Under the pieces are notes generated by a model. The model was not told where the DNA came from. It searched no databases and saw only the letters and a list, made by a program, of their open reading frames with translations. Shown one piece after another: positions 16,327 through 48,949 of a DNA stretch of 64,000 nucleotides. The stretch covers positions 8,789,001 to 8,853,000 of the forward strand of contig NZ_CP136624.1 in the NCBI RefSeq assembly GCF_032917945.1, read 5' to 3'. The position numbers and the translations under genes were made by a program. Source of the DNA: Bradyrhizobium sp. sBnM-33. GTDB taxonomy: Bacteria; Pseudomonadota; Alphaproteobacteria; Rhizobiales; Xanthobacteraceae. The number at the start of each line of letters is the position of its first letter. Position 1 is the stretch's first letter.

Positions 16327-16418
16327 CGTCATGCCCGGCCTTGTGCCGGGCATCCACGTCTTTACGGTGTTGGTAATAGAGAAAGACGTGGATGGCCGGG
16401 ACAAGCCCGGCCATGACG
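16327..16418. repeat. Palindromic repeat, family A
   Basis: The left arm CGTCATGCCCGGCCTTGTGC and the right arm ending GGCCGGGACAAGCCCGGCCA/TGACG are inverted copies with ACGTCTTT / AAGACGT inner arms. It fills the yidC-yihA gap. Confidence 0.8.
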
Positions 16419-18664: not shown

Positions 18665-19086
18665 GCAAGGAGCATCGATCGATTCCGGGCGGGCCAAGAC
18701 ACCAGGCTCTCCCCGAGCGAAGTCCCTCGCCGGGACGATGGATCCGGTCAGGCCGCCATCCGGGAAGTCGGCTCACAACCACGCACCCCGTAGATTGGCC
18801 GGCCGGTTCCTCATGCACCCCAGAAGGTGACGGCCTCAGCGCCGATCCCGTACAGAAGCAAGTGCCCGGCAAGTGGACCAAGCAAGAGGGATTGACAAAC
18901 CAAGGCCCGTTACAGAAGCCCGGATGGAGCGAAGCGCAATCCGGGGCCGATGCCGCCACTTGATGGAGGTTTCCCGGATTTCGCTTCGCTCCATCCGGGC
19001 TACGGCCTTCGCGATCCCCACTTTGCGCCCTGCGCGCCAATCGGATAGAACCCGGCCCGACATTTGAGAATGGCGAGACCCGCTTC
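18665..19086. other. Gap after the transposase: IS right end and repeat
   Basis: This 422-base stretch has no gene. Its first 240 bases are probably the right non-coding end of the IS110 element. 18917-19001 is a family C palindrome, and the last 85 bases precede argB. Confidence 0.6.
18917..19001. repeat. Palindromic repeat, family C
   Basis: The arms AGCCCGGATGGAGCGAAGCG and CGCTTCGCTCCATCCGGGCT are perfect inverted copies around a short centre (GATGCCGCCACTTGATGGA). Confidence 0.85.
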
Positions 19087-19983: not shown

Positions 19984-20005
19984 TGCACGAGCGGCAAAAG
20001 AAAGT

Positions 20006-20094
20006 CGTCATGGCCGGGCTTGTCCCGGCCATCCACGCCTTTATCGGCTGCAGCAGGAAAGACGTGGATGCCCGGGTCAAGCCCGGGCATGACG
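20006..20094. repeat. Palindromic repeat, family A
   Basis: The left arm CGTCATGGCCGGGCTTGTCC and a right arm ending CCGGGTCAAGCCCGGGCATG/ACG flank inner CCACGCCTTT / AAAGACGTGG. A frame running through it (VVMAGLVPAIHAF) is an artefact, not the true start of the next gene. Confidence 0.85.
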
Positions 20095-20141
20095 AGCGGG
20101 GAACACGGCGGCCAACACGCTCCGCGTTAACTCGCATTCTG

Positions 20142-21156: not shown

Positions 21157-21258
21157 GTCATCACCCGCGAAGGCGGGTGATCCAGTACTCCGAGACGCCC
21201 GTTGTTACTCTCAAGGGCCGCGGCGTACTGGATGCCCCGCCTTCGCGGGGCATGACAG
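21157..21258. repeat. Palindromic repeat, family B
   Basis: The left arm CGTCATCACCCGCGAAGGCG, with GATCCAGTACTCC, is mirrored by the right arm GGCGTACTGGATGCCCCGCC ...GGGGCATGACAG. Confidence 0.85.
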
Positions 21259-21270
21259 CGAGGATGTACG

Positions 21271-21963
21271 ATGAAAACACCCCGCCCCTTCAGCCACATC
21301 GACACCTGGGTGTTCGATCTCGACAACACGCTGTACCCGCACCACGTCAATCTGTGGCAGCAGGTCGACGCGCGGATCGGTGAATTCATCAGCGCGTACT
21401 TGAAAATCTCCGCGGAAGACGCCCGCGTGATCCAGAAGGACTATTACCGCCGCTACGGCACCAGCATGCGCGGCATGATGACGGAGCATGGCGTGCACGC
21501 CGACGACTATCTGGCCTACGTCCACAAGATCGATCACTCGCCGCTGGAGCCGAACCCCGCGATGGGGGCAGCGATCGCGAAACTTCCCGGACGCAAGCTG
21601 ATCCTGACCAACGGCTCCACCGACCACGCCGGCGCGGTACTGGCGCGGCTCGGCATCGGCGAGCATTTCGAGGCGGTATTCGACATCATCGCCGCCGAAC
21701 TGGAGCCGAAGCCGGCGCCGCAGACCTATGAGAGATTCCTGCGCGTCCACGGCGTCGATCCTGCCAAAGCCGCGATGTTCGAGGATCTCGCCCGCAATCT
21801 CGTGGTACCGCATCAGCTCGGCATGACCACGGTGCTGGTGGTGCCCGACGGCGCCAAGGAAGTGGTGCGCGAGGACTGGGAGTTGGAAGGCCGCGATGCG
21901 GCTTACGTCGATCATGTGACGGACGATCTGACGGGGTTTTTGGAGCAGTTGAGCAGAAAGTAG
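21271..21963 (+). CDS. Pyrimidine 5'-nucleotidase-type HAD hydrolase
   Basis: The 230-residue HAD enzyme has motif I WVFDLDNTLYP (nucleophile Asp in FDLDNT), motif II KLILTNGST, Lys of motif III near LEPKPAPQTYERF and motif IV AAMFEDLARNL. The spacing and the NLWQQVDARIGEFISAYLKI cap helix fit the Sdt1/phm8-like pyrimidine 5'-nucleotidase group, which dephosphorylates UMP/CMP. The stop codon TAG is the first three bases of a family C palindrome. Confidence 0.88.
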   Translation: MKTPRPFSHIDTWVFDLDNTLYPHHVNLWQQVDARIGEFISAYLKISAEDARVIQKDYYRRYGTSMRGMMTEHGVHADDYLAYVHKIDHSPLEPNPAMGAAIAKLPGRKLILTNGSTDHAGAVLARLGIGEHFEAVFDIIAAELEPKPAPQTYERFLRVHGVDPAKAAMFEDLARNLVVPHQLGMTTVLVVPDGAKEVVREDWELEGRDAAYVDHVTDDLTGFLEQLSRK

Positions 21964-22045
21964 CCCGGATGGAGCGAAGCGTAATCCGGGGAATGTCTCG
22001 CAACTGGTGAACAATCCCGGATTGCGCTTCGCTCCATCCGGGCTA
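21961..22045. repeat. Palindromic repeat, family C, supplying a stop codon
   Basis: TAGCCCGGATGGAGCGAAGC and GCTTCGCTCCATCCGGGCTA are perfect inverted arms. The leading TAG is the stop of the HAD gene. A half of a family B arm (TGGATCACCCGCTTTCGCGG) follows to about 22080. Confidence 0.85.
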
Positions 22046-22156
22046 CGACGCTGGATCACCCGCTTTCGCGGGCGATGACAGCGAACCTGCCTTGACTCTC
22101 CCCCTCCAAATCCCGAAAAAGCCCCCCGCTTCGCCCGAAATCCCGAGGAAATCCCA

Positions 22157-23837: not shown

Positions 23838-25025
23838 ATGAATGACGCTGTTTCCATTACCCGCGAGCTCGTCCGCTGCCCTTCTGTCACCCCTGCCGAT
23901 GCCGGTGCGCTCGGCGTGCTCGAACGCCTTTTGAAAGACGCCGGCTTCGAGGTGCATCGCGTGACCTTCGGCGAACCCGGCACCGCCGATATCGACAATC
24001 TCTATGCCCGGATCGGCACCGAGGCGCCGCACATCACCTTTGCCGGCCATACCGATGTGGTGCCACCTGGCGACGAGGCCGCGTGGACGCACGGCGCATT
24101 CTCCGGTGAGATCAAGGACGGTTTCCTCTATGGCCGCGGCGCGGTCGACATGAAGGGCGGCATCGCCTGCAGCGTCGCAGCCGTATTGCAATATCTCGCC
24201 GACCACGGCGGCAAGCCCAAAGGCTCGATCTCGTTTCTGATCACCGGCGACGAAGAGGACATTTCGGTCAACGGCACCATCAAACTGCTGAAATGGTGCG
24301 CCGAGCGCGGTGAAAAATTCGATCATTGCGTCCTCGGCGAGCCATCGAATGTCGAGGTGCTGGGTGATTGCATCAAGATCGGCCGCCGCGGCTCGCAATC
24401 CGGCACGCTCTATGTCGACGGCGTGCAAGGCCATGTCGCCTATCCGCACCGCGCATCGAACCCGGTACCGGACATTTCGCGGCTGATCGTGGCGCTTTCC
24501 GACGAGCCGCTCGATCACGGCAGTGCGCAGTTCCAGGCCTCCAACCTCGAATTCACCTCGGTCGATGTCGGCAACACCGCAAGCAATGTCATCCCCGGAC
24601 AGGCGCGCGCAAAGTTCAACATCCGCTTCAACGACAACCACACCCAGGAAACCCTGCGCGCGCTGGTCGAGGAACGGCTGGCAAAAGCCTGCGGCAACCG
24701 CATCCGCGCCCGCATCGTGTGGGAGTATTCCAACTCCAACGTGTTCGTCACAAAACCCGGCGCGTTCACCGATCTCGCGGTAAGCGCGATCGAGGAAGTC
24801 ACCGGACGCAAGCCGGAGCTCTCGACATCCGGCGGCACCTCGGACGCGCGCTTCATCTCTAACTACTGCCCGGTGATCGAGTTCGGACTCGTCGGCCAGA
24901 CCATGCACCAGATCGACGAACGCACGCCGGTGTCCGATCTGGAGAAGCTGACGAAGATTTATCGCGGGGCGTTGGAGCGGTATTTTGCGTTGCTCACCGG
25001 CGTCATCATCCGCCCAGAATCGTAG
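23838..25025 (+). CDS. dapE: Succinyl-diaminopimelate desuccinylase
   Basis: The 395-residue zinc metallopeptidase starts at the ATG at 23838 ([20 protein letters not shown]). The M20 signature is complete: [12 protein letters not shown] with the first zinc His, [13 protein letters not shown] with bridging Asp, [13 protein letters not shown] with catalytic Glu, the dimerisation domain [15 protein letters not shown], and [11 protein letters not shown] toward the end. It releases succinate to give LL-diaminopimelate. The longer start at 23772 would translate the inverted repeat. The stop TAG opens a family C-like repeat. Confidence 0.97.
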
Positions 25026-25098
25026 GATGAGTAGAGCGCAGCGATACCCATCATCTCGCCGGTAACGCGATGGGTATCGCTTCGCTCCACCCATCCTA
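25023..25098. repeat. Palindromic repeat, family C-like, supplying a stop codon
   Basis: The arms TAGGATGAGTAGAGCGCAGC...ATACCCATC and GATGGGTATCGCTTCGCTCC ACCCATCCTA are imperfect inverses. The leading TAG is the dapE stop. Confidence 0.75.
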
Positions 25099-25119
25099 CG
25101 AAGCCGGCGTCGTGGTCAG

Positions 25120-25872: not shown

Positions 25873-25977
25873 CTGTCATCATCCGCGAAAGCGGATGATC
25901 CAGTACGCCGCGGCATCGCGGCTCAATCTCTAAAGGCCGCAGCGTACTGGATACCCCGCGTTCGCGGGGTATGACAG
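25873..25977. repeat. Palindromic repeat, family B
   Basis: CTGTCATCATCCGCGAAAGC ... GATCCAGTACGCC is mirrored by GCGTACTGGATACCCCGCG ... GGGGTATGACAG. Confidence 0.85.
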
Positions 25978-26949: not shown

Positions 26950-27036
26950 CGTCATGGCCGGGCTTGTCCCGGCCATCCAGTCTTTGGTGCGGCAAGGAAG
27001 AAAGACGTGGATGCCCGGTCAAGCCCGGGCATGACG
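26950..27036. repeat. Palindromic repeat, family A
   Basis: CGTCATGGCCGGGCTTGTCC and the inverse ending CAAGCCCGGGCATGACG flank CCAGTCTTT / AAAGACGTGG inner arms between def and fmt. Confidence 0.85.
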
Positions 27037-27658: not shown

Positions 27659-27762
27659 CCATGATTTTCAAGGCGGCGTTAACCACGAAAATTAGCCCGG
27701 CATTTACCATAAATGTTCCCTCTTCGTTCGCGCAAGCCAGCGAATCGGGCTACAAGGCTGAC

Positions 27763-28971
27763 ATGAATGAAATTCTCTTCACCGTCGGCGACCTGCCGAT
27801 TCACGTGGGCGAGGCGCTGGCTGGCTTCGGCGCGCTCGCATTGGTGCTGCTGCTGGCGATTGCCATCGTCATCGCCCGCTCCGGCCGCCGGGGCGCGGAA
27901 CTGGCGATGGCCCAGGCGATCCGCGCCGACGAACTGGAAGAGCGGCTGAGCGAGATGCTGCGGGCGCAGAGCGAGTCGACCGGGCGGGTTGACGCCATGG
28001 CGCAGGCGCTGGCCGGACGCCAGGCCGAGATGGCGCGCGCGGTCAACGAGCGCCTGGATTCGGTGACGCATCGCGTCGGCCAGTCGATGGAAGCGACCAC
28101 GCGCCACACCATGGATAGCTTGCGGGTGCTGCATGAGCGGCTCGGCATCATCGACAACGCGCACAAGAACCTCACCGACCTGACCTCTCAGGTGACCACG
28201 CTCCGCGACGTGCTCGCCAACAAGCAGTCGCGCGGCGCCTTCGGCCAGGCGCGGATGGAAGCAATCGTGCAGGACGGCATGCCGCAAGGCTCGTACGAGT
28301 TCCAGTACACGCTCTCGTCCGGCAAGCGGCCGGATTGCGTGGTGTTCCTGCCGGATCAGCGGCCGCTCTGCATCGACGCCAAATTTCCGCTGGAGGCGAT
28401 GACCGCGTTGCACGACGCGCGCACCGACGAGGAGCGAAAATTCGCCACGCAGCGCTTGCGCAACGACGTGATGAAACACGTCAATGACATCGCCGAGAAG
28501 TACCTGATCGCCGGCGAGACCCAGGATACGGCGCTGATGTTCGTGCCATCGGAATCGGTCTATGCCGAAATCCATGACGGCTTTGACGACGTGATCCAGA
28601 AAGCCTACCGCGCCCGCGTCGTGCTGGTATCGCCCTCACTGTTGATGCTGGCGATCCAGGTGATGCAGCAGATTTTAAAGGACGCGCGGATGCGCGACGC
28701 CGCCGACCAGATCCGCACCGAGGTGCTCAACCTCGGTGATGACCTCGGCCGCCTGCGCGACCGCGTGCTGAAGCTGCAAAAGCATTTTAGCGACGTCAAC
28801 GAGGATGTGCGGCAGATCCTGATCTCCGCCGACAAGATCGAAAAGCGCGCCGGTCGGATCGAGGAACTCGATTTCAGCAAGACCGATGCGCCGGTGGAAG
28901 TGCCACGCTTCGTCAAGAACAGCGCGCCCGAACTGTTCCCCGCCCCGCGCAAGCTGCAGGCGGGGGAGTAG
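27763..28971 (+). CDS. rmuC: DNA recombination protein RmuC
   Basis: The 402-residue protein has an N-terminal membrane helix (ALAGFGALALVLLLAIAIV), a long coiled coil (about 60-150) and the RmuC nuclease-like core: RGAFGQARMEAIVQDGMPQG, RPLCIDAKFPLEAM (PD-D/ExK-like Asp and Lys in DAKFPLE) and VFVPSESVYAEI. It limits sequence inversions. The ATG at 27763 is preferred to 27661, which lies in the CtrA-box region. Confidence 0.93.
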   Translation: MNEILFTVGDLPIHVGEALAGFGALALVLLLAIAIVIARSGRRGAELAMAQAIRADELEERLSEMLRAQSESTGRVDAMAQALAGRQAEMARAVNERLDSVTHRVGQSMEATTRHTMDSLRVLHERLGIIDNAHKNLTDLTSQVTTLRDVLANKQSRGAFGQARMEAIVQDGMPQGSYEFQYTLSSGKRPDCVVFLPDQRPLCIDAKFPLEAMTALHDARTDEERKFATQRLRNDVMKHVNDIAEKYLIAGETQDTALMFVPSESVYAEIHDGFDDVIQKAYRARVVLVSPSLLMLAIQVMQQILKDARMRDAADQIRTEVLNLGDDLGRLRDRVLKLQKHFSDVNEDVRQILISADKIEKRAGRIEELDFSKTDAPVEVPRFVKNSAPELFPAPRKLQAGE

Positions 28972-29008: not shown

Positions 29009-29408
29009 CTGTCATCGCCCGGCTTGACCGGGCGACCCAGTATCCCAGAGGCCGCAGTTGGGAACACACAGCTATTACGTCTACATTCTGGCCAGCCGCA
29101 TCGGTGGAACGCTTTACATCGGCGTGACGAATGGATCTGATCCGACGCATTGGCGAGCATAAGTTGAAGGTCGCCGAGAGCTTCACCAAAAGCACGACGT
29201 GACGCGGCTCGTTTTATTTCGAAATCTTCGACCAAATCGAACACGCGATCCAGCGCGAAAAGCGGCTCAAGAAATGGCCCCGAGCCTGGAAGATCTCGCT
29301 GATCGAGAAACAAAATCCGGACTGGATTGATCTTTATCCTGAAATTGCCGGGGGCGGCGGATAGGCCTCTGGAATACTGGATCGCCCGGTCAAGCCGGGC
29401 GATGACAG
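29009..29408. mobile_element. Family B palindromic element carrying a GIY-YIG gene
   Basis: Terminal arms of 45 bases (29009-29053 and 29364-29408) are inverted copies with 43 of 45 matches by eye, starting CTGTCATCGCCCGGCTTGAC and ending ...CCGGGCGATGACAG. Between them lies only the decayed GIY-YIG gene. The arms match those of the gene-less family B palindromes in this window, so this may be the parent form of the repeat. Confidence 0.7.
29058..29364 (+). pseudogene. GIY-YIG endonuclease, three frameshifts
   Basis: With shifts corrected the protein reads GTHSYYVYILASRIGGTLYI, GVTNDLIRRIGEHK, FTKKHDVTRLVYFE, REKRLKKWPRAWKISLIE and NPDWIDLYPEIAGGGG. This is a YhbQ-like GIY-YIG nuclease of about 100 residues with the YVYILAS...LYIGVT signature and catalytic Arg and Glu present. 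Breaks lie at about 29133 (extra G), 29190 (one A short) and 29213 (extra T). The start is probably TTG at 29058, and the stop uses the first base of the right arm. Confidence 0.75.
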
Positions 29409-29442: not shown

Positions 29443-30807
29443 ATGACCACACCAGAATCCGCTTCGGTTTCATCTGAGAAAGCCCCCGCGCCAAACTGGC
29501 GCGAGGCCTGGGCCGTGTACCTCCAGCCGCGCGTGCTGATCGTGCTGCTGCTCGGCTTTTCGTCCGGGCTGCCATTGGCGCTGTCGGGATCGACGCTCCT
29601 GGTGTGGATGAGGGAATCCGGCGTCGATCTCGGCACCATCGGACTGTTCGCGCTGGTCGGTACGCCCTACACGCTGAAATTTGCCTGGGCGCCGCTGGTC
29701 GATGCGCTACATGTGCCGATCTTCACCCGTGCCTTCGGCCGCCGCCGTGGCTGGCTGGTGTTCTCGCAACTGCTGCTGATCGGCGCGATCCTGTTGCTGG
29801 CGCTGACCGACCCGGTGCGCTCGCCGCTGTTCGTGGCGCTCGGCGCGCTTCTGGTCGCGACCATGTCCTCGACGCAGGACATCGTGGTCGACGCGTTCCG
29901 CGTCGAGAGCCTGCCCGAAAGCGAACAAGCCGCCGGTATGGCCTCCTACGTCGCGGCCTACCGGATTGGCATGCTGGTCTCGACGGCCGGCGTGCTGTTC
30001 CTCGTAAGCGCGTTCGAGGACACCGGCATCGGGCGCAACGCCGCGTGGATGTGGGGCTATGTCGTCATGGCCGCGCTGGTGCTGATCGGCACCGTCACGG
30101 CGCTGGCCGCCACCGAGCCCGAGCAATCCGTGCGCGCGGAGGCCAAGACCCGCGACGAGGCTGCATTGTCTCGCATTATGCATGCGGCGATCGGGGCGTT
30201 CTCCGAATTTCTGACCCGCAAGCATGCTTTCGCGGCGCTGGCCTTCGTGGTGCTGTTCAAGCTCACCGACGCGTTTTCCGGCACCATGACCGCGCCGTTC
30301 GTGATCGACCTCGGCTTCACCCGCAACGACTACGCCGCGATCGTTAAGGGCGTCGGTCTCGCCGCGACCCTGATCGGCGGCTTTGCCGGCGGCTATGTGG
30401 CGCGGCGCTACTCGCTGGTCGCAAGCCTCTGGATCGGCGGCGTGCTGCAGGCGATCTCCAATCTGGTGTTTGCGTGGCTCGCCTTTGTCGGCACCAACCA
30501 ATGGGCATTGGCCGCCGCCATTTCGGCGGAAAACTTCACCGGCGCGATCGGCACCGTGATCTTCGTCGCCTATCTCTCGGCGCTGTGCCAGAACCCGTTG
30601 CATACGGCGACCCAATACGCGCTGCTCACCGCGCTGGCCGCTGTCGGGCGCACCTATCTGTCCTCCGGCGCCGGTTATGTCGCGGAGGCCACGGGCTGGC
30701 CGCTGTTTTTCGTGATCTCCGTTGCGGTCGCGGTGCCGAGCCTGATTCTGATGGCCTGGCTGCAACGGCGCGGGCATTTTGAGGCGCTGGGGCCGGTGCG
30801 GGTTTAG
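29443..30807 (+). CDS. AmpG-like muropeptide MFS transporter
   Basis: The 454-residue protein has 12 or so membrane segments. It carries the AmpG pattern near the N-terminus (VLLLGFSSGLPLALSGSTLL, VGTPYTLKFAWAPLVDAL) and SSTQDIVVDAFRVESLPESE in the first loop region, which is characteristic of the AmpG / PAT family. AmpG imports anhydromuropeptides for peptidoglycan recycling and links to beta-lactamase induction; substrate is inferred. The gene follows the GIY-YIG palindrome and precedes another family B palindrome. Confidence 0.88.
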   Translation: MTTPESASVSSEKAPAPNWREAWAVYLQPRVLIVLLLGFSSGLPLALSGSTLLVWMRESGVDLGTIGLFALVGTPYTLKFAWAPLVDALHVPIFTRAFGRRRGWLVFSQLLLIGAILLLALTDPVRSPLFVALGALLVATMSSTQDIVVDAFRVESLPESEQAAGMASYVAAYRIGMLVSTAGVLFLVSAFEDTGIGRNAAWMWGYVVMAALVLIGTVTALAATEPEQSVRAEAKTRDEAALSRIMHAAIGAFSEFLTRKHAFAALAFVVLFKLTDAFSGTMTAPFVIDLGFTRNDYAAIVKGVGLAATLIGGFAGGYVARRYSLVASLWIGGVLQAISNLVFAWLAFVGTNQWALAAAISAENFTGAIGTVIFVAYLSALCQNPLHTATQYALLTALAAVGRTYLSSGAGYVAEATGWPLFFVISVAVAVPSLILMAWLQRRGHFEALGPVRV

Positions 30808-30835: not shown

Positions 30836-30939
30836 CGTCGTCACCCGCGAAAGCGGGTGATCCAGTATTCCAGAACAGTTGCGATAGAGCCGAGAGAGCG
30901 CGGCGTACTGGATCGCCCGGTCGAGCCGGGCGACGACAG
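30836..30939. repeat. Palindromic repeat, family B
   Basis: CGTCGTCACCCGCGAAAGCG...GATCCAGTATTCCAGA mirrors GCGTACTGGATCGCCCGGTC ...GGGCGACGACAG. Confidence 0.85.
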
Positions 30940-34478: not shown

Positions 34479-34580
34479 CTGTCATACCCCGCGAAAGCGG
34501 GGTATCCAGTATGCTGCGGCCCATCGGTGAAACGGCAGCGCCGCGGCGTACTGGATCACCCGCTTTCGCGGGTGATGACG
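34479..34580. repeat. Palindromic repeat, family B
   Basis: CTGTCATACCCCGCGAAAGC...GGTATCCAGTATGCTGC mirrors GGCGTACTGGATCACCCGCT...GCGGGTGATGACG. Confidence 0.85.
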
Positions 34581-37659: not shown

Positions 37660-37763
37660 CTGTCGTCACCCGCGAAGGCGGGTGACCCAGTATTCCAGAG
37701 ACGTCAGAGATTGAACGATAGGCCGCGGCGTACTGGGTCCCCCGCCTTCGCGTGGGACGACAG
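37660..37763. repeat. Palindromic repeat, family B
   Basis: CTGTCGTCACCCGCGAAGGC...ACCCAGTATTCCAGAG mirrors GGCGTACTGGGTCCCCCGCC ...GGGACGACAG. Confidence 0.8.
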
Positions 37764-40043: not shown

Positions 40044-40135
40044 CGTCATACGCGGCTTGACCCGCGTATCCATCAATCTTCAGAAAAAGCCTCTTCTCAA
40101 GAACGATGGATTGCCGGGTTAAGCCCGGCAATGAC
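40044..40135. repeat. Palindromic repeat, family A variant
   Basis: CGTCATACGCGGCTTGACCC...ATCCAT and ATGGATTGCCGGGTTAAGCC/CGGCAATGAC are imperfect inverse arms between the protease and hrpB. Confidence 0.7.
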
Positions 40136-40146
40136 ACCCGAAACGC

Positions 40147-42747
<2,601 letters not shown>

Positions 42748-42760
42748 TATATCACCACGT

Positions 42761-42851
42761 CGTCATGCCCGGGCTTGTCCCGGGCATCCACGTCTTTCTT
42801 GTCCGGCCAGAAAACAAGACGTGGATGGCCGGGACAAGCCCGGCCATGACG
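42761..42851. repeat. Palindromic repeat, family A
   Basis: CGTCATGCCCGGGCTTGTCC and the inverse ending ACAAGCCCGGCCATGACG flank CCACGTCTT / AAGACGTGG inner arms, between hrpB and the dehydrogenase gene. Confidence 0.9.
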
Positions 42852-45440: not shown

Positions 45441-45543
45441 CTGTCGTGGCCCGGCTTGACCGGGCGACCCAGTACTCCGGGCTCCCTCAGTTGAACACGC
45501 CCGCCGCGGCGTACTGGATCACCCGCCTTCGCGGGTGATGACG
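45441..45543. repeat. Palindromic repeat, family B
   Basis: CTGTCGTGGCCCGGCTTGAC...ACCCAGTACTCCGG mirrors GGCGTACTGGATCACCCGCC ...GCGGGTGATGACG. Confidence 0.8.
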
Positions 45544-48690: not shown

Positions 48691-48695
48691 CTGCT

Positions 48696-48834
48696 CTGTC
48701 ATCGTCCGGCTTGACCGGACGATCCAGTATTCCAGAGCAGGATTTGTGAAGCGCAATCCGCGCCGCGTTGACCACCGCACTTCTCGGAAGAACCGCAGCG
48801 TACTGGGTCGCCCGGCCAAGCCGGGCGATGACAG
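48696..48834. repeat. Palindromic repeat, family B
   Basis: CTGTCATCGTCCGGCTTGAC...GATCCAGTATTCCAGAG mirrors GCGTACTGGGTCGCCCGGCC ...CCGGGCGATGACAG, with a longer, partly different centre. Confidence 0.8.
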
Positions 48835-48949
48835 ACGTGTATGTAGATAGGCCTCCATCACCGCCAGAAATGTCCTCGGTGCAATTGCGCAATGGAATCG
48901 CCGCGGCTCGCACGCTAGAAACGTGCGCATCCCTCCCCGCGAGTCTCCC

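Follow-up and report, generated by a model that had tools for sequence, protein, structure and literature searches.

Decayed GIY-YIG nuclease gene between CGTC-tagged REP arms in Bradyrhizobium: a putative REP-associated nuclease system resembling RAYT/REP

CGTC-tagged REPs were described by Di Nocera et al. (2013; PMC3733652) as units formed by a CGTC, TGTC or CCTC tag, a stem of 8–9 bp that is nearly always AT-initiated, a loop of 4–5 nt and a CCA-like tail; statements on this and the following two articles refer to the parts of each that were available to us. These REPs occur mostly as head-to-head dimers, predominate in alphaproteobacteria, including Bradyrhizobium, and comprise the neisserial dRS3 and the rickettsial RPE-4/6 elements. 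The 2013 survey reported them from five phyla, named Azospirillum lipoferum, Sinorhizobium meliloti, Novosphingobium aromaticivorans and the “Neisseriae” as hosts, and left the spreading agent open. Its conclusion states that they “apparently lack[s] a dedicated transposase”, and the parts available mention no transposase gene flanked by CGTC units apart from a few fortuitous associations. REPs with a GTAG tag are cut and recombined in vitro by the E. coli RAYT (PMC8266576), and Br-REP1 and Br-REP2 have been described as repeats of Bradyrhizobium japonicum (Hahn et al., 2016; PMC5082802). The words “GIY-YIG” and “endonuclease” have zero occurrences in the main text of the latter article, and no report joining GIY-YIG proteins to REPs or to dRS3 was found in the open-licence PMC literature (subscription papers and preprints lay outside this scope).

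The window, i.e., the whole stretch of DNA analyzed, comprises 64,000 nucleotides (positions 8,789,001–8,853,000) of the 9.18-Mb single-contig genome of Bradyrhizobium sp. sBnM-33. It contains two inverted arms of 45 nt, at 29009–29053 and 29364–29408, which are complementary at 43 of 45 positions (96%), lie 310 nt apart and constitute the longest inverted pair of the window in a search up to a distance of 1.5 kb. The left arm (+ strand) consists of a TGTC tag, the hairpin CGCCCGG-CTTGA-CCGGGCG, with a mismatch at the stem base, a CCA tail and the inner end CAGTATCCCAGAGGCC. The right arm (− strand), of the same type, reads ATCGCCCGG-CTTGA-CCGGGCGAT-CCA, with the AT-initiated stem, the loop and the CCA tail that the CGTC-REP definition requires. 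In both arms CTGTC lies at the outer end and the CCA tail inside, and each arm folds into a hairpin (DNA z −3.0 and −4.0). By tag, stem, loop and tail, and as multicopy head-to-head dimers, the arms fit the description of CGTC-tagged REPs.

Between these arms a decayed GIY-YIG nuclease gene of the kind called M below (29060–29364, + strand) was found, and no other plausible gene was seen within the 310 nt. Its start is uncertain (TTG at 29060, by eye), and the PF01541-type remnant was recovered by HMM as two pieces in different reading frames, 29073–29135 and 29212–29346; a profile match at 29134–29355 includes a TGA. The enzyme is a GIY-YIG nuclease and belongs to no known transposase type (DDE, HuH, serine, tyrosine). 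Its stop codon (29362–29364) overlaps the right arm by a single base, the last of the codon and the first of the arm (by eye). The computed pair, the HMM pieces and this overlap bear out the earlier note, which had described inverted arms of 45 bp with 43 matches around a decayed nuclease gene whose stop codon borrows a base of the right arm. The neighboring ORFs at 27661–28971 (+ strand), which we take from its sequence to be RmuC-like, and at 29443–30807 (+ strand), presumably MFS/AmpG-like, served as anchors for the comparison of orthologous sites, and the flanks of the window site align with those of named Bradyrhizobium loci, among them L128, at the corresponding position.

A total of 13 head-to-head REP pairs were detected in the window, one with a gene and 12 gene-less. 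Seven gene-less CGTC-REP dimers carry the CCAGTA tail of the gene-bearing pair (21157–21256, 25873–25977, 30837–30939, 34481–34579, 37660–37763, 45441–45542, and 48695–48835); the two halves of the second have different stems, and the last is the nearest in sequence to the nuclease’s own arms. The earlier note had claimed arms of identical type at seven or more gene-less places; seven dimers share the tail, but their stems vary, so they are of the same type as the nuclease arms and not identical. The other gene-less dimers belong to other CGTC families: one at 16327–16418 with GCCCGG stems and a CCACGTCTTT tail, three similar to it at 20005–20095, 26950–27036, and 42761–42851, and a family-e-like dimer at 40045–40135. 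A loose hairpin grammar gave 35 matches in the window, some plainly due to chance, compared with 6–16 across ten block-shuffled versions and 15 when the window was reversed, and the arm pattern was found genome-wide in 31 copies with up to three mismatches, while the reversed control gave none.

Other palindromes were also observed. GTAG-tagged ones (GTAGCCCGGATGGAGCG.., GTAGGATGAGTAGAGC..) lie alongside the CGTC REPs of the window at 18917–19001, 21960–22046, and 25020–25101, and a further palindromic repeat type (CCCCTTGCGGGGAGGGG / CCCCCGCAAGGGG) at 41151–41238 has like sequences at the sites of relatives (e.g., L262, L103, and L113). Small palindromic inserts were seen within REP hairpins (L039, L041, L260, and L289; L291, L293, and L312); some have a GCGCAATTGCGC core, others CAACGGGTCGCGCGAA..GCGCGCCCGATGACAGGCTC, and the latter recurs in differing palindromes, as though a smaller repeat targeted them.

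GIY-YIG genes were collected from the top-ranked PF01541 matches of 40 Bradyrhizobium genomes (used down to G029:C12:89814, with G032:C1:192163, G035:C338:3924, G037:C175:1875, and G030:C78:181 omitted within the sampled ranks), together with six matches of the window’s own genome and the window itself. The 89 genes that remained after removal of duplicates were assigned to kinds by two HMMs built on the first loci: 55 of kind M (the window’s kind), 27 of kind T (~80 aa) and seven of kind X, which have a weak M score and were separated afterwards. The own-genome UvrC (L005) was below the HMM threshold, and the two pieces of the window were counted as one M gene. A gene was considered bracketed when the inverted-repeat score across it, with flanks of 400 bp, was at least 18; this sequence-neutral score served as the main test because a strict REP grammar misses long-stem families.

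Brackets were found around 48 of the 55 M genes, none of the 27 T genes and four of the seven X genes. Random intervals were bracketed in 0 of 1946 cases in the sampled loci and in 1 of 772 in the window, and other ORFs in 12 of 261 (4/97 distant, 5/103 adjacent, and 3/61 in the window). The strict grammar (GTC, a stem of at least 7 bp, CCA) recovered REPs at 35/55 M genes, 0/27 T genes, 0/7 X genes and 0/986 random intervals. Each of the seven unbracketed M genes was accompanied by a CGTC REP, either on one flank or on both. The clade-M arrangements were REP>gene<REP or dimer-gene-dimer, with a full dimer on each side of many family-a copies, and in the arms inspected the flanking tags were CGTC or TGTC, not GTAG.

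The other two clades showed features of their own. In eight of eight clade-T loci scanned (L003, L004, L009, L013, L016, L019, L029, and L033) a tRNA gene lies within ~200 bp, tRNA-Ala in seven and tRNA-Tyr in one. The four bracketed members of clade X (L048, L055, L063, and L093), a clade that appears by eye to be nearer UPF0213, are flanked by other palindromes, mostly CCTCATCCTGAGG..TCGAAGGATG, which are perhaps a CCTC-tag variant of the CGTC REPs.

Clade-M nucleases are single-domain proteins of ~95 residues. The GIY/YIG tyrosines, an arginine and a glutamate are the catalytic residues expected in a GIY-YIG enzyme, and Y5, Y16, R26, and E63 did not vary among 19 clade-M members spanning several phyla, the window copy itself being broken. 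Two clade-M members searched against Pfam matched PF01541 (E 1.5e-18 and 2.6e-15), one of them also T5orf172, weakly, and neither matched a Y1 family; no NCBIfam family was returned for the four proteins searched. At E ≤ 0.01 the clade-M profile matched just two proteins of solved structure, the UPF0213 proteins BH0048 (PDB 1ZG2) and EF2693 (1YWL), with E values of 1.2e-8 and 5.5e-5. A RAYT or another IS transposase could in principle move the CGTC REPs, the GIY-YIG gene being a passenger, given that GTAG REPs are substrates of the E. coli RAYT in vitro (PMC8266576) and that a Y1_Tnp match exists in the genome. Nevertheless, we consider this very improbable: the sole such match (L330) sits among GTAG REPs of the GTAGCCCGGATGGAGCG kind (by eye), and CGTC units flank no transposase gene beyond the few fortuitous associations mentioned in the available parts of PMC3733652.

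The relationship between nuclease lineage and REP family was analyzed on a tree built from 84 M proteins of Bradyrhizobium, all but one of them (83) with an arm label assigned by custom regular expressions; same-site orthologues were included, and many forks were unresolved owing to the shortness of the proteins. With labels d and d2 pooled, since they are mixed at one site, the nine arm labels needed eight changes, which is the minimum, and nine changes when the unlabelled row was treated as a tenth group, compared with a shuffled mean of 44.9. Unpooled, 11 labels needed 13 changes (minimum 10), compared with a shuffled mean of 57.3 and a lowest value of 50 in 200 shuffles. Protein similarity was also correlated with arm similarity among the 40 of 55 genes with grammar REPs (Mantel r 0.763, reached in 0 of 2000 whole and 0 of 2000 within-genome shuffles), and in 213 of 260 comparisons (124.3 expected) the most similar protein in another genome also had the most similar arms. 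Restricted to different sites by a conservative and probably over-merged site clustering, r was 0.436 (0/1000 shuffles). Flank repeats were shared by 38/38 different-site pairs at a protein similarity of at least 0.9, compared with 130/4774 at 0.5–0.6. These sequence comparisons show that the arm family follows the nuclease tree, in the sense of association and co-divergence.

One genome (G211) contains ten different M nucleases, each beside different arm types (by eye), with a REP-like sequence present only downstream at one of them (L243). The recent amplification of a single element in this genome was ruled out, as the ten nucleases have differing arm sequences (by eye).

The bracket might also be a by-product of insertion preference or chance at shared intergenic hot spots, the genomes being rich in REPs and one intergenic site holding different palindrome families, GTAG included, across genomes. 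This explanation can hardly be credited: it does not fit the counts for clade T (0/27), other ORFs (12/261) and random intervals (0/1946, and 0/757 in the second set described below), it leaves the match between arm family and nuclease clade unexplained, and it is largely contradicted by their co-divergence.

The window site, next to rmuC, was compared in 30 loci read among 89 matching genomes, with both flanks present in 27. Open nuclease alleles with family-d arms were found (e.g., L102, L107, L110, L121, and L126), and two loci (L105 and L106) carried another allele with other arms. Loci without the gene held a dimer (L109), a single REP (L100 and L123), a collapse to one hairpin (L118 and L125) or, in the others, no REP by grammar. 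In G004 (L072/L127) the gene is inverted relative to rmuC between arms of the same type, which is the expected outcome of recombination between inverted arms. Read across these genomes, the rmuC site is an old one that shows loss, collapse, inversion and the exchange of alleles. The expectation of the earlier note that intact copies would have the same arms was too narrow; intact alleles exist, yet other stem types also occupy the orthologous site. A recent insertion of a parent element at the window site was ruled out, the gene being resident at the orthologous site in many species, and many M copies are vertically inherited at old sites.

For two further sites, those of L041 and L039, matches existed in 92 and 96 genomes, respectively, and the best 30 were read for each; four and three of these loci lacked a flank and were left out. 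The gene was present in one of 26 genomes at the L041 site, where 14 of the 25 others had a gene-less CGTC REP (seven dimers and seven single units), and in one of 27 at the L039 site, where the other 26 comprised 18 with a gene-less CGTC REP (14 dimers and four single units), five with a GTAG palindrome and three with neither. In the comparison of filled and empty sites suggested by the earlier note, each of these two sites has a single filled copy, and gene-less REPs in most of the other genomes. The presence of the gene in a single genome is most parsimoniously read as a gain at both sites; repeated loss, e.g., by recombination between two direct dimers, may be the alternative. At the L039 site (L288–L317) the palindrome families differ by genome (REP a, d/d2, and GTAG), a variety that suggests either that families have replaced one another there repeatedly or that the site is a hot spot.

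In A. lipoferum 4B the 617 nt that separate sufB from sufC hold a dimer-gene-dimer. Among the matches listed, 11 other Azospirillum records align with both flanks but have no counterpart of the middle part; the four that were read (three of them annotated) have spacers of 87–129 nt. A precise empty junction or a target-site duplication was not found at the sites compared, where spacers have diverged. Additionally, the point at which DNA similarity ends was located for 80 different-site pairs whose nucleases are similar: it lay within 8 bp of an outer REP tag at 42 of 144 ends (20/67 upstream and 22/77 downstream), compared with 7/144 for random positions (Fisher p 3e-8, the pairs being non-independent). 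At the remaining 102 ends the similarity stopped away from an outer REP tag, often closer to the gene.

After removal of saturated or near-identical pairs, the median pairwise dN/dS was 0.04–0.10 in five M families and 0.08 in clade T (median dS near 1), values that point to strong purifying selection on the M gene. Such selection, together with the long residence at orthologous sites in many species, would suit a domesticated housekeeping nuclease that serves its host by trimming or resolving the hairpins and cruciforms of REPs, stays beside its REP and moves nothing. We regard this role as improbable in view of the patchy presence of the gene (one genome in 26–27 at two sites), the different REP arms of the ten nucleases of G211 (by eye) and decay, as seen in the window.

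REP copies were counted in 98 genomes, arm copies being subtracted from the REP-a counts and nuclease a being scored as present at an identity of at least 80%; two genomes with fragments of this nuclease were excluded from the REP-a test, and one copy scored as present has a stop. The median number of REP-a copies was 22 in 29 genomes with nuclease a and 3 in 67 genomes without it (p 4e-4, uncorrected for relatedness). For REP-e the medians were 12 and 4 in 22 and 76 genomes with and without nuclease e, respectively (p 5e-5, also uncorrected for relatedness, with a few partial or interrupted copies scored as present). The crossed nuclease–REP pairs of a and e showed no association in the 98 genomes (p 0.38 and 0.34). 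The number of REP copies is therefore predicted by the presence of the family's own nuclease and not by that of another one, with large exceptions lacking a close nuclease (160 REP-a copies in G004 and 108 in G077, and 33 REP-e copies in G037). The earlier note had reckoned arms in genomes that never carried such a nuclease as evidence against its proposal; REP-a copies do occur in 45 of the 67 genomes without nuclease a at 80% identity or more, but these genomes may formerly have carried one.

The main rival explanation is a homing-type parasite, in which the nuclease, by cutting REPs, would have its gene copied into dimers that are already there while the REPs are spread by something else. 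It agrees with the L041 and L039 sites, at which relatives of the single gene-bearing genome have gene-less REPs, with the rmuC site, whose gene and arm types differ among close relatives like exchanged alleles, and with the full dimer on each side of many family-a copies. However, a nuclease merely consuming REPs would not predict a family-specific correlation with the numbers of gene-less REPs, and no other enzyme is linked to CGTC REPs in the 2013 survey, as far as its available parts go (PMC3733652); we hold this explanation to be unlikely, although less so than the other rivals.

The occurrence of the bracket beyond Bradyrhizobium was analyzed in a second set, which overlaps the first and was composed of the best 80 of at least 569 confirmed candidates from a profile scan of GTDB contigs and 30 loci from a class search; three loci lay too close to a contig end, and 107 were tested. 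Of the 289 alphaproteobacterial genomes in the class search, 128 had a match at E ≤ 1e-3; these matches may include GIY-YIG genes of other kinds. Brackets were found in 73/107 loci at a score of at least 18 and in 82/107 at a score of at least 16, compared with 0/757 random intervals; 34 of the 107 M genes were below 18. By source, 31/36 loci with Bradyrhizobi- titles, 1/1 from the own genome, 26/42 from other GTDB contigs and 15/28 from the class search reached 18. The question of the earlier note, whether GIY-YIG copies are always flanked by such arms, has a graded answer: mostly in Bradyrhizobium clade M (48/55), in 41 of 70 loci outside this genus, with 29 under the threshold, and never in clade T (0/27). 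Scores of at least 16 include records titled Omnitrophus, Dehalococcoidales/Dehalococcoidia, Parcubacteria, Berkelbacteria, Marinimicrobia, and Cloacimonadota, and also Nitrospirales, Nitrospinales, Myxococcales, Deferribacteres, Polaribacter, and Polaromonas, mostly MAGs with binning as deposited. The brackets outside Bradyrhizobium are not all CGTC REPs, that of L164 being of another type (by eye).

In a plasmid collection 32 records had a match, and eight were fetched. Six of these were bracketed: Azospirillum lipoferum 4B, Sinorhizobium meliloti pSymB, Novosphingobium aromaticivorans pNL2, Neisseria gonorrhoeae, Rhizobium sp. CIAT894, and Sphingobium sp. TomMM7A. The arm tails of pNL2 and TomMM7A differ from CCA, and the arms of the N. 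gonorrhoeae nuclease, GTCATTCCCGC..GCGGGAATCC, were taken for dRS3. The two records without a bracket, Photobacterium GJ3 and R. tumorigenes, each have a single tag-stem-CCA unit downstream (by eye). The bracketed copies of A. lipoferum, S. meliloti, N. aromaticivorans, and N. gonorrhoeae thus come from a species or genus named among the CGTC hosts in 2013 (PMC3733652, in its available parts). A protein profile search gave at least 7975 matches at E ≤ 1e-10 among 8000 candidates scored, a context-free number that is a sign of abundance only, and no match at E ≤ 1e-6 was obtained in phage records with one M protein as query.

Taken together, with a probability of roughly two in three, the window feature would represent, in decayed form, a system of GIY-YIG nucleases associated with REPs, similar to RAYT/REP but with an unrelated enzyme, in which each nuclease lineage has its own REP family and would cleave and mobilize it. 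The earlier note had already proposed such a partnership; the bracket far above the controls, the match between clade and arms and the numbers of own-family REPs agree with it, whereas a reading of this copy as a recently landed parent is not supported, the gene being resident at the orthologous site in many species. The pairing of each enzyme version with its own matching repeat suggests that these enzymes may spread the CGTC REPs. The nuclease would recognize its own REP hairpin when a head-to-head dimer extrudes or turns single-stranded, and would nick it near the boundary of the GTC tag or the CCA tail. Repair or strand exchange would then copy the unit elsewhere, often as a gene-less dimer and occasionally as a dimer with the gene, and new copies would frequently land where a REP already stands, so that the dispersal of the REPs would be caused by the nuclease. 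To our knowledge, GIY-YIG enzymes do not rejoin strands, and a copying step mediated by host repair is therefore presumed, which also fits the gene copies found where relatives hold a gene-less REP.

The broader proposal, that the GIY-YIG nucleases of this clade are dedicated mobilizers of CGTC REPs throughout bacteria, dRS3 included, acting in trans by cut and repair without transposase chemistry as an independently evolved counterpart of RAYT/REP, appears to us slightly favored over its denial. The mover of a common class of bacterial repeats, left open in 2013, becomes testable with one protein and one oligonucleotide. If the proposal is true, hairpin-repeat mobility arose more than once, through unrelated enzymes, and a role would be assigned to thousands of proteins annotated as nothing more than “GIY-YIG nuclease family protein” or “putative endonuclease”.

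Among known systems, the GIY-YIG homing endonucleases (I-TevI type) share with clade M the catalytic family and the condition of a selfish gene residing in its presumed target, but no intron or intein was seen here, and the target would be a multicopy hairpin instead of a single unique site. The UPF0213 proteins BH0048 and EF2693 are distant in sequence from clade M and are listed as hypothetical proteins, the listing naming no association with repeats. Arms of family h (L052, L065, L075, L085, and L097; by eye) contain the core of Br-REP1, CCGGAATCTCGAGATTCCGG, either unaltered or changed at one or two positions, whereas Br-REP1 and Br-REP2 were described as repeats only, to judge from the available parts of PMC5082802. 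With the CGTC REPs of PMC3733652 the repeats analyzed here have in common the TGTC tag, the AT-initiated stem of 8–9 bp, the loop of 5 nt, the CCA tail, the head-to-head dimers and the abundance in alphaproteobacteria; the difference is that no transposase was linked to them in that survey, as far as its available parts state, while here a specific GIY-YIG clade is bracketed by them and co-diverges with them. The RAYT/TnpA-REP systems (REPtrons and REPINs) likewise combine a nuclease gene in few copies, flanked by cognate hairpin repeats, with many dispersed gene-less head-to-head dimers, but they rely on an HuH-Y1 transposase and a GTAG tag, whereas the putative system described here pairs a GIY-YIG nuclease with a CGTC tag.
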